A stretch of 10,350 nucleotides of DNA from Bacteroides sp. (GTDB lineage: Bacteria > Bacteroidota > Bacteroidia > Bacteroidales > Muribaculaceae), in assembly GCA_014801655.1 (NCBI GenBank), contig JAAVDT010000007.1:60090-70439 (forward strand). The letters run 5' to 3'. A program made the position numbers and the translations under genes. Below are positions 3,041 to 5,131 of this stretch, one piece after another. Within the stretch, counting starts at the first letter, position 1; every line of letters begins with the position of its first letter. A model generated the notes under the pieces. That model had not been told where the DNA came from. It searched no databases and worked only from the letters and a program-made list of their open reading frames with translations.

Positions 3041-3460
3041 TCAATTATTGCAAACTGCATTCTTTACGGTTACAGCAAGATTTGACAGAGTGGTGTTAAG
3101 TTCAACCGGGTAATCTTTGATGATATTGCCGGAACCGGGGCCCGGAATTGGTTGTGGAGGAAACACCATTCCATCATAGAGTTTAACGGTTGCTCCATTA
3201 GCATTCGTTGCTGTTACAGTCACATGAATGTTGACAAGCGCAGTGGAGGCAGAATTTGCAGCCACCACATTCAGGGTATATTTCTTAGGCGCTGATTGTT
3301 TCAGATAGGCCGTAGCTTCCACATAGTCATTTCCTCCACTGATCAGGCAATGGCCGGAAGCCTCTTCAGCCCATGCGGTATGACCGGAAATGAGTAGCGT
3401 AATAGCGACCAAAAGCGATTTCAATAAATCCATCCTTCTCTCTATTACAAAGCGTGTCAT
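3041..3460 (-). CDS. secreted protein of unknown function
   Basis: The product has 139 residues. It has a Sec signal peptide (hydrophobic core about 11-26, probable cleavage after HTAWA at residue 31) and a mature part of about 108 residues that is rich in Thr, Val, Asn and Ala with alternating beta-like runs. A Pro/Gly-rich segment (FPPQPIPGPGSG) lies near 100-111. The mature protein has only two Cys (38 and 137), near its two ends, so a disulphide clasping a small beta-sandwich is plausible. The ATG overlaps the stop of the preceding gene (TAATG), which suggests translational coupling. An alternative ATG at 3433 (130 residues) follows an AG-rich stretch and gives a more standard signal peptide, so the start is uncertain. 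No family is recognised. Confidence 0.65.
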   Translation of the reverse strand: MTRFVIERRMDLLKSLLVAITLLISGHTAWAEEASGHCLISGGNDYVEATAYLKQSAPKKYTLNVVAANSASTALVNIHVTVTATNANGATVKLYDGMVFPPQPIPGPGSGNIIKDYPVELNTTLSNLAVTVKNAVCNN

Positions 3461-3756
3461 TAAGAATTAAATCCCCACCATTCGCCACCTATATTGGCAG
3501 CATAGTCATAGCCGAAACGGCTTCCGTTAACGACCAGCCCTTTTCGGCCACCACCTAAGACTACATAGGTTTCATCACCTTCCTGCACCAATTTGGCATA
3601 CTGATGGATTTTTGGATTGGAAATTTTGGTAAGTTTTACGCTACTACCATTTGCCTGCATATTGACAGTCACCAGATTCTGGTCTAAATTCAGTTCAACA
3701 GCGCAAACTGAAAAAAGAGATGCCATCAATGCAATTGAAACAAAAATCTTTTTCAT
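3460..3756 (-). CDS. small secreted glycine-rich protein of unknown function
   Basis: The product has 98 residues. The signal peptide starts MKKIF, has a hydrophobic core, and is probably cleaved after VCA at residue 19. The mature part is about 79 residues with no Cys. It begins VELNLDQN, has short beta-like runs, and ends in a Gly- and aromatic-rich stretch (GGGRKG, then FGYDY, then GGEWWGFN) over the last 30 or so residues. The frame stays open for 23 more codons upstream, but those cross the promoter -7 box and give no sensible signal peptide, so I use the ATG at 3756. It is first of three close-packed genes for exported proteins. No family is recognised; an antimicrobial or adhesive role is conceivable but unsupported. 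Confidence 0.65.
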   Translation of the reverse strand: MKKIFVSIALMASLFSVCAVELNLDQNLVTVNMQANGSSVKLTKISNPKIHQYAKLVQEGDETYVVLGGGRKGLVVNGSRFGYDYAANIGGEWWGFNS

Positions 3757-3790
3757 TTTGAATGTTTTTAATGATTTGTAAATGCAATGG

Positions 3791-3858: not shown

Positions 3859-4071
3859 TCATTTTACACCACATTCATCATCTGTGAAACAATTGAAAAA
3901 GTTTTTATTGAGGGCGCGCGATATTGCCTTCAATTGGTCGGTGTTGATGCTCGGCTGTGAAAATATATAGTAGATGTTTGGCCGCTGGCAGTTGATATGA
4001 CGAGCCAACCACGCCGGAGTGCGCTCCTGACGCAGCATTTCTTCTCTAATCAACTGTCCGATGTGAACCAT
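3859..4071 (-). CDS. small XRE-type helix-turn-helix regulator
   Basis: The 70-residue protein starts MVHIGQLIREEM and consists almost wholly of one five-helix DNA-binding domain. RTPAWLARHINCQRPNIYYIF (about 17-37) is the helix-turn-helix, and SINTDQLKAISRALN (about 40-54) forms the following helices. From memory, many Bacteroidales carry short regulators of this pattern, starting M(V/I)HIG and ending in a FF-containing tail. It would act in the cytosol as a dimer at palindromic operators. The frame is open upstream to an ATG at 4158, giving 99 residues, but the extra 29 residues do not look like a domain and fall in the structured leader, so I choose 4071. Its neighbour is the exported-protein gene set, which it may control. 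Confidence 0.7.
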   Translation of the reverse strand: MVHIGQLIREEMLRQERTPAWLARHINCQRPNIYYIFSQPSINTDQLKAISRALNKNFFNCFTDDECGVK

Positions 4072-4311
4072 AATGGGCTGAATCTGTTTATGCAACTTAC
4101 CACTGTGGCACCGCCAAGCGCCGTCGAAACAAGTAAGCACAAACGATTCAGCCCACATTGCAGGCTGAACTACAACCGGTGCTTATCCTCGTTTCGTTTG
4201 AAAAATTGGCGGTTTTCAGTGGTGAGGATAAGAGCCTTGAAGCTCAATATCTATTATTTGCGATTATTTATCTTTAATTCTTTCTGTGTCGTTTCTTTTT
4301 TGTTTGCAATT
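4072..4311 (-). promoter_or_regulatory. long structured leader of the XRE gene, possible RNA switch
   Basis: About 240 nt separate the predicted transcription start (near 4311) from the ATG at 4071. On the minus strand, CTTATCCTC (4232-4224) can pair with GAGGATAAG (4190-4182). ACCACTG and ACCGCCAA (4223-4217, 4213-4206) can pair with CAGTGGT and TTGGCGGT (4105-4099, 4117-4110). TTCAGCC (4169-4163) can pair with GGCTGAA (4153-4147), and TGGGCTGAATC (4155-4145) with GATTCAGCCCA (4084-4074). The first and last pairings are compatible with each other, as are the second and third, but the two sets compete. The last stem ends two bases before the start codon. No known riboswitch class is recognised. 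Confidence 0.55.
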
Positions 4312-4317
4312 TCACCG

Positions 4318-4350
4318 CAAAGATAATGACTTTTTTTGAATAAATGCAAA
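4318..4350 (-). promoter_or_regulatory. strong Bacteroidota promoter of the XRE gene
   Basis: On the minus strand, TTTG (4350-4347) is followed after 21 bp by TATCTTTG (4325-4318), a full match to the TTTG/TAnnTTTG consensus. The -33 box is in the T-tract of the yebC terminator just upstream, so termination and initiation sit back to back. Confidence 0.75.
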
Positions 4351-4381
4351 ACTCCCGGCGTGCGGTGGGCAGGCCGGGAGT
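4351..4381 (-). terminator. intrinsic terminator after yebC
   Basis: On the minus strand, ACTCCCGGC (4381-4373) pairs with GCCGGGAGT (4359-4351) around a 13-base loop and is followed by TTTGC. It lies 28 bases after the yebC stop and its T-tract is the -33 box of the next promoter. Confidence 0.85.
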
Positions 4382-4408: not shown

Positions 4409-5131
4409 TTATTCTTCGGCTTCTTTCATGTTGTGGAACACGTTCTGAACGTCTTCATCTTCTTCGAGCTTGTCGAGAAGCTTTTCGATGGCTGCGCGCT
4501 GCTCTTCGGTCACTTCCTTGAGGTCGTTGGGGATGCGTTCAAACTCTGAGGAGATGATTTCGTAGCCGTTGTCTTCGAGATACTTCTGGATGTTGGAGTA
4601 GTCTTCGAAGGCACCGTAGAGCACGATTTCTTCTTCATCAGGTTCCACTTCGTCAACACCGCAGTCAATGAGTTCGAGTTCGAGTTCTTCAACGTCCATG
4701 CCTTCGGTGGGTTTGATTTTAAACACACACTTGTGATCGAAGAGGAACGAGAGCGAGCCCTGAGTGCCGAGCGAGCCGTTGTGTTTGTTGAAGTATGAGC
4801 GCACGTTGGCCACGGTGCGGGTGTTGTTGTCGGTAGCGGCTTCAACGAAGATGGCGATACCGAAGGGGCCGTAGCCTTCGTAGGAGATTTCTTTGTAGTC
4901 GCCGGCATCCTTGTCGGTGGCTTTCTTGATGGCGCGTTCAACGGTGTCTTTGGGCATGTTGGCGGCCTTGGCGTTCTGCATCAGCGCGCGCAGACGGGGG
5001 TTGGTGTCGGGGTCGGGACCACCGGCCTTGGCGGCGATGGTGATTTCCTTACCGATGCGCGTGAAGGTGCGCGACATGTTGCCCCAGCGTTTGAGCTTGC
5101 GGGCTTTGCGATATTCAAATGCTCTTCCCAT
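4409..5131 (-). CDS. yebC: YebC/PmpR (TACO1-like) family protein
   Basis: The 240-residue protein is at the normal family length. The N-terminus starts MGRAFEYRKARKLKRWGNM, with the family's basic first domain, then PDPDTNPRLRALMQNAK (about 39-55) and NMPKDTVERAIKKA (about 58-71). The middle has YEGYGPFGIAIFVE (about 84-97), TDNNTRTVANVRSYF (about 99-113) and GSLGTQGSLSFLFD (about 119-132). The C-terminal part is strongly acidic. Family members have been described as transcription regulators and, for the TACO1-like branch, as factors easing ribosome stalling in translation. Which applies here is not visible. The gene is 53 bases behind pheT on the same strand with no terminator between, so the two are probably co-transcribed, which fits a translation role. 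Confidence 0.95.
   Translation of the reverse strand: MGRAFEYRKARKLKRWGNMSRTFTRIGKEITIAAKAGGPDPDTNPRLRALMQNAKAANMPKDTVERAIKKATDKDAGDYKEISYEGYGPFGIAIFVEAATDNNTRTVANVRSYFNKHNGSLGTQGSLSFLFDHKCVFKIKPTEGMDVEELELELIDCGVDEVEPDEEEIVLYGAFEDYSNIQKYLEDNGYEIISSEFERIPNDLKEVTEEQRAAIEKLLDKLEEDEDVQNVFHNMKEAEE

Follow-up and report, generated by a model that had tools for sequence, protein, structure and literature searches.

The RNA leader in front of a small XRE-type regulator gene in the window (the whole 10,350-nucleotide stretch of DNA that was analysed) is, with a probability of roughly 80%, a member of a Bacteroidota-wide family of cis-acting terminator/antiterminator RNA switches. Members of the family are about 200 nt long. 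Compensatory change maintains each of their two competing folds, and most members are followed by a T-run and a co-directional open reading frame (ORF). The original prediction had called the folds mutually exclusive; covariation and the preference of strands for their own partners in relatives support this.

Helices of the leader in the window

The leader was first described through the segments A, B and C with their partners, and direct reading of the minus strand places each of them at the coordinates given here. Strand A (4224-4232) forms 9 bp with A′ (4182-4190) in fold 1. Strand B (4206-4223, comprising B2a at 4223-4217 and B1a at 4213-4206) pairs with B′ (4099-4117) in fold 2 through 7 and 8 bp around an AAA/GCCA internal loop. 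Strand C (4163-4170) has two possible partners, C′ (4145-4155) in fold 2 and the P1 region in fold 1. Its pairing with C′ (4169-4163 with 4153-4147) is 7 bp long; including flanking and G-U pairs extends the helix to 11 bp (4170/4146). In fold 1, C′ (4155-4145) instead forms 11 bp with C″ (4084-4074). The segments listed in the original prediction stand, but helix D, hairpin E and the P1 arm had been missed. Helix D, which belongs to fold 2 and competes with A-A′, consists of 16 bp with a two-base bulge; its 5′ strand (4179-4196, paired at 4196-4188 and 4185-4179) overlaps A′, and the first part of its 3′ strand (4125-4140) can alternatively lengthen the C′-C″ stem. Hairpin E (4107-4122) has the stem strands GGCGC (4122-4118) and GUGCC (4111-4107) and the loop UUGGCG, which is B1b. 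P1 (4232-4245) is a small 5′ hairpin. These assignments draw on covariation and own-versus-cross pairing tests for A, B, B′, C″ and the 5′ strand of D; on pairing tests for A′, C, C′ and the 3′ strand of D; on covariation for E; and on a permutation test for P1. C″ and its upstream extension (together 4074-4098) form the 3′ arm of a terminator-like stem whose T-run is eroded in the window. The start codon of the XRE gene, ATG, lies at 4071-4069, and the fold 1 stem closes two bases upstream of this AUG.

The minimum free energy of the leader (window 4072-4251) is -68.2 kcal/mol (z -5.2), and none of 200 shuffled sequences was as low. The number of long helices in the window sequence is not unusual: it contains four of at least 9 bp, a number reached by 42 of 300 shuffles, and one pair of conflicting helices, which 100 of 300 shuffles also reach. 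As we read these results, the decisive evidence for the two folds of the window is comparative.

Upstream of the leader, also on the minus strand, is a promoter-like element, TTTG-N21-TAtcTTTG (4318-4350; TTTG at 4350-4347, then 21 nt, then TAtcTTTG at 4325-4318), which we take to fit the Bacteroidota-type consensus. Of 134 family members, 90 carry a TANNTTTG box in the 160 nt preceding A; the stretch 140-300 nt upstream gives 25, and the reverse strand of that stretch 21. A GC-rich hairpin (CTCCCGGC/GCCGGGAG) followed by TTTTGC is found on the minus strand at 4346-4380, 3′ of a YebC-type gene (4409-5131), and overlaps the upstream box of the promoter-like element. The regulator itself (3859-4071, minus strand) is 70 residues long by ORF translation, has 35 relatives in genome contigs and gives a sub-threshold match to HTH_26 (E 0.036) in a Pfam scan. 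It is followed on the same strand by an ORF whose N-terminus looks by eye like a signal peptide (3460-3756; scanned as 3460-3759, one codon longer) and by an ORF with, again by eye, a hydrophobic N-terminus (3041-3460). Neither has a Pfam family.

Compensatory changes and partner exchange in relatives

Searching genome contigs with the XRE protein yielded 35 loci. The leader is recognisable immediately 5′ of the XRE start in 26; among the other nine, a covariance model recovered L030, scored L014 and L015 weakly and did not match six. Similar DNA is present in close relatives and on a Phocaeicola massiliensis plasmid record. The 28 sequences that we aligned comprise the window, L002, L005, L045 and 24 of these 26 leaders (L022 and L042 were left out as near-duplicates). 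In this alignment, fold 2 (B-B′, D and C-C′) is paired in 91.1% of cells, with both sides changed in 22 of 39 pairs, and fold 1 (A-A′, C′-C″ and E) in 88.1% of cells, with both sides changed in 16 of 28 pairs. None of 500 shuffles and no slid version reaches the covariation score of either fold; for fold 1, 8 of the 500 shuffles reach the count of 16 pairs.

Further members were collected with a covariance model trained on XRE-linked leaders. Because this search model contained fold 2 alone, fold 1 is the less biased test on new members. Two sets of matches (89 and 62) gave 135 members once 14 opposite-strand matches, a duplicated locus (L051) and the second occurrence of the window had been removed; other near-identical copies remain in the set. 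The opposite-strand matches were weak and numbered 12 of the 89 in one member search and 2 of the 62 in the other. Across 100 members, fold 2 is paired in 93.4% of cells, with both sides changed in 38 of 39 pairs. For fold 1 the values are 79.2% and 25 of 28; 25 of 500 shuffles reached this count and none reached the covariation score. The support for B2 is the covariation of fold 2 in the 28 leaders and the 100 members.

We also compared own with cross pairing in 95 of the 100 members, all less than 85% identical to one another, by cutting the strands at alignment columns and pairing each with its own partner or that of another member. For A-A′, B-B′, C-C′, C′-C″, D, E and the extended terminator stem, mean own pairing exceeded that of every one of 2000 permutations. 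Three control pairings in the same members, A with D, C with C″ and B with A′, showed no preference for the own partner, indicating that shared ancestry alone does not produce the signal. The 24-nt P1 region co-varies with C (z -11.6, 0 of 2000 permutations), and its halves co-vary with each other (z -5.2). The start of D co-varies with the stretch before C″ (z -9.3). In the permutation test, none of P1, A and C co-varies with that stretch. It follows that the two states swap partners along the entire molecule. An A/U-rich hairpin around B1a was considered and is not adopted here: by stem length, own partners do better than chance (equalled in 1 of 5000 permutations), but by folding energy they do not (531 of 5000).

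The original prediction had left open that the repeats are operators at the DNA level. At paired columns, G-U occurs 385 times and A-C mismatches 42 times, in an alignment that was fitted to the fold 2 model, so that these counts and the fold 2 pairs lean towards it. The pairing signal fits an RNA of the coding-direction strand, and the operator alternative is disfavoured. A protein-coding leader is also unlikely, given frequent indels in the alignments and the finding that, in 9 of 23 XRE loci, a stop codon interrupts the frame no more than 10 codons before the XRE start. This is a simple rather than a strict test, however: in the remaining 14 the frame is open over 18 to 70 codons, with an in-frame Met in six.

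Distribution and downstream genes

The distribution was surveyed within Bacteroidota genomes. Under strict filters, 133 of the order's 393 genomes contain the family; it is also found in 25 of 345 genomes drawn from the phylum, two of the 25 being from the order and one of them the source genome. A laxer search of relatives, source genome included, found it in 23 of 39 genomes, with six matches in the source genome. Among cultured strains there are nine matches in Paraprevotella clara and four in P. xylaniphila, each count including one opposite-strand duplicate, and seven in Bacteroides acidifaciens.

In the source genome, a divergent copy with a much longer C arm and a weak model score (E 6.6e-4) precedes a second small XRE gene (L048, 1207-1441). 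L013 carries two leader copies on opposite strands, roughly 1.7 kb apart, the second at 916-1112 on the minus strand. Six XRE relatives (L014, L015, L027, L028, L036 and L044) have no clear leader match; upstream of their XRE starts, possible hairpins followed by T-rich stretches can be seen by eye and are possibly further leader classes. Viral contigs were searched with two exact patterns, which matched 0 and 8 contigs; the eight (L160-L167) match a variant of the core pattern. A phage or plasmid origin was considered and set aside: a blastn search with the Phocaeicola copy returned no phage record and, among plasmids, only its own plasmid record.

The genes that follow the leader are usually read in the same direction. 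Using a simple, purpose-written ORF caller, we found that the first downstream ORF of at least 90 residues is co-directional in 117 of the 135 members, opposite in 11 and absent from the stretch examined in 7 (117 of 128 where present); the nearest upstream ORF is co-directional in 89, opposite in 34 and absent in 12 (89 of 123), and this frequent co-direction on the upstream side counts against the cis-acting reading. By a crude, purpose-made signal-peptide rule, 67 of 110 first co-directional downstream ORFs within 450 nt look exported, compared with 15 of 99 nearest upstream ORFs. The enrichment extends beyond the first gene, as 47 of 78 second downstream ORFs also look exported. These orientations bear on the idea that the element acts in trans, as an independent small RNA that has a promoter and a terminator of its own. 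The promoter-like box and the T-run would suit such an RNA, as would the members with an absent or opposite downstream ORF, but the co-directional, exported-looking genes would not, and a small RNA has no need for a conserved fold that destroys its terminator. We regard this explanation as improbable.

The leader had been presented as belonging to the XRE gene. Of the 135 members, 46 have an XRE gene no more than 600 nt away. Among the 110 members that were not found with the XRE protein, three of which (L002, L005 and L045) were retrieved by a DNA query with the xre gene in it, 22 have an XRE gene within 600 nt and 88 do not, which argues against such specificity. XRE-type domains are normally DNA-binding. 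That the leader is autoregulatory and bound by the XRE protein, as RNA or as DNA, would account for the members that an XRE gene follows, including the 22 found independently of the protein; most members have no XRE gene nearby, and the G-U pairing indicates RNA. We consider autoregulation by the XRE protein very improbable.

To describe the other targets, 30 of 74 XRE-free downstream proteins were scanned against Pfam (20 of 35 that are not signal-like and 10 of 39 that are), and 11 of the 30 have no family. DNA methyltransferases are the first product after the leader for five of the 20 non-signal-like proteins (L061, L064, L066, L123 and L130), and PADLOC models assign these to type I, II, IIG or III modification enzymes. 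Other non-signal-like products include CheB/CheR, an acyltransferase, UbiA, a histidine kinase, a response regulator, LytTR and a radical SAM protein. The signal-like products include BspA-type repeats, BACON domains and CsgG. The scanned genes share no common pathway.

The terminator-like end and possible modes of control

The longest T-run within 18 nt at the end of C″ is at least 5 in 98 of 135 members, compared with 12 of 134 upstream and 7 of 135 downstream control stretches; the search model ends in T positions, which bears on these counts. Five T in eight bases discriminates poorly, being found in 134 of 135 members but also in 83 of 134 upstream stretches, and at least seven T in eight is found in 87 of 135 members versus 12 of 134. 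The longest run is 3 or shorter in 19 of the 135; it is 2 in the window and 2 or 3 in several of its close relatives. Conserved, mutually exclusive helices and a hairpin with a U-run before a gene, two marks of a transcription attenuator, are present in the family, but the window itself lacks the U-run. The original prediction of a translational switch is plausible for the window copy and for those close relatives with runs of 2 or 3. Since C″ precedes a T-run in most relatives, the ancestral switch looks transcriptional. In the window, where the T-run is eroded and the stem ends two bases from the AUG, translational control is likelier.

In RNAs ending at B′, B-B′ is part of the minimum-energy fold in 100 of 100 members. 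For the full-length RNA, fold 2 has the lower energy in 93 of the 100, by a median difference of 10.2 kcal/mol, in an energy model that takes no account of pseudoknots (contact of the E loop with B1a, for example). Because the thermodynamics favour fold 2 in these 93, fold 1 may rarely be populated without help. In the window, fold 1 is computed to be lower than fold 2 (-68.2 versus -66.1).

We propose that the RNA would start at the leader's own promoter. Fold 2, made up of the P1 hairpin and B-B′ enclosing D, which in turn encloses C-C′, would be able to form before C″ is transcribed, leaving C″ free and permitting read-through. Fold 1 would combine P1-C, A-A′, hairpin E and a stem in which C′ and the beginning of D bind C″ and the extension upstream of it, placing a terminator hairpin before the downstream gene. 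Fold 2 would be the default, read-through state, with termination occurring when fold 1 wins, and the ratio between them would be set by some factor or by the folding race itself. In the window copy, which has lost its T-run, fold 1 would more likely hinder initiation at the AUG two bases downstream.

What sets this ratio could differ within the terminator/antiterminator reading. A small molecule might select the fold, as in a metabolite riboswitch. The geometry 5′ of genes is of the right kind, and a pocket could form from two near-invariant A residues beside B1a and the GG/CC of hairpin E; however, conserved unpaired bases are few, the scanned downstream genes share no pathway and there is no Rfam riboswitch match. 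We consider this special case unlikely. It is somewhat more plausible, if still tentative, that the leader is a ligand-free attenuator, in which partial and possibly cell-to-cell variable read-through would be set by a NusG-type factor, by pausing of RNA polymerase or by a co-transcriptional folding race. Pairing is more conserved than sequence, B1 often differs among copies within one genome and the targets are unrelated, all of which favours it, but the computed energies favour fold 2 in most members. The scarcity of conserved unpaired bases and the unrelated scanned targets mildly favour a folding-race or protein-dependent attenuator over a metabolite aptamer.

Among known systems, ColE1 RNAI/RNAII and IncI repZ are kissing-loop antisense systems of plasmids. 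The leader resembles them in having the loop UUGGCG opposite a complementary CGCCAA stretch; unlike in those systems, both partners are in cis within one RNA, and the B1a hairpin is weakly supported. In kind, the leader is like terminator/antiterminator leaders, that is, attenuators and the expression platforms of riboswitches, with which the family shares alternative helices, a terminator hairpin with a T-run and a co-directional gene. It differs from these in exchanging strands over the whole RNA, in having no evident aptamer core and in the diversity of its targets (exported proteins, DNA modification and regulators). At gathering score, no Rfam 15 family, including Bacteroidales-1, Flavo-1, T-box and 6S, matches the window or 52 scanned loci (47 clear members; L014 and L048, which score weakly; L027, L036 and L044, which lack the motif); the only hits were two tRNAs elsewhere in the scanned stretches. 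The published Bacteroidota motifs described in the sections consulted of PMC2864571 (Bacteroidales-1, Bacteroides-1, Flavo-1 and 6S-flavo) are likewise structured intergenic RNAs of this phylum, from which the leader is set apart by the Rfam result. A literature search, with preprints and most subscription papers outside its scope, found no description of the family, nor was one noted from the portions consulted of PMC9723704, PMC7366714 and PMC10994844. These results agree with the original proposal of an undescribed regulatory leader. In a human-microbiome survey of 3161 candidates, HTH-XRE ranks in the top two by frequency among domains in the surrounding 5 kb (100 candidates), according to the portion consulted (PMC8040213). 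That portion names no family like the window leader; the candidates in the supplement stand outside this comparison and overlap is possible, so that fragments of the family may be among the survey's unnamed predictions. An attenuator leader is a known kind of element; what appears to be new is this family, together with how widely it occurs and the reciprocal exchange of its strands.

More speculatively, and in our view doubtfully, the family could be a phylum-wide bistable switch without a sequence-defined aptamer, in which a terminator and a long antiterminator would race to fold as the RNA is transcribed, giving partial or cell-to-cell variable expression of exported-protein and restriction-modification genes. 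The leader family is a clear natural case of two competing folds conserved together by evolution. Bacteroidota are a dominant gut phylum, and few of their regulatory RNAs are understood. A multi-copy leader before genes for surface proteins, DNA modification and regulators would give a common, testable handle on how accessory genes are switched.
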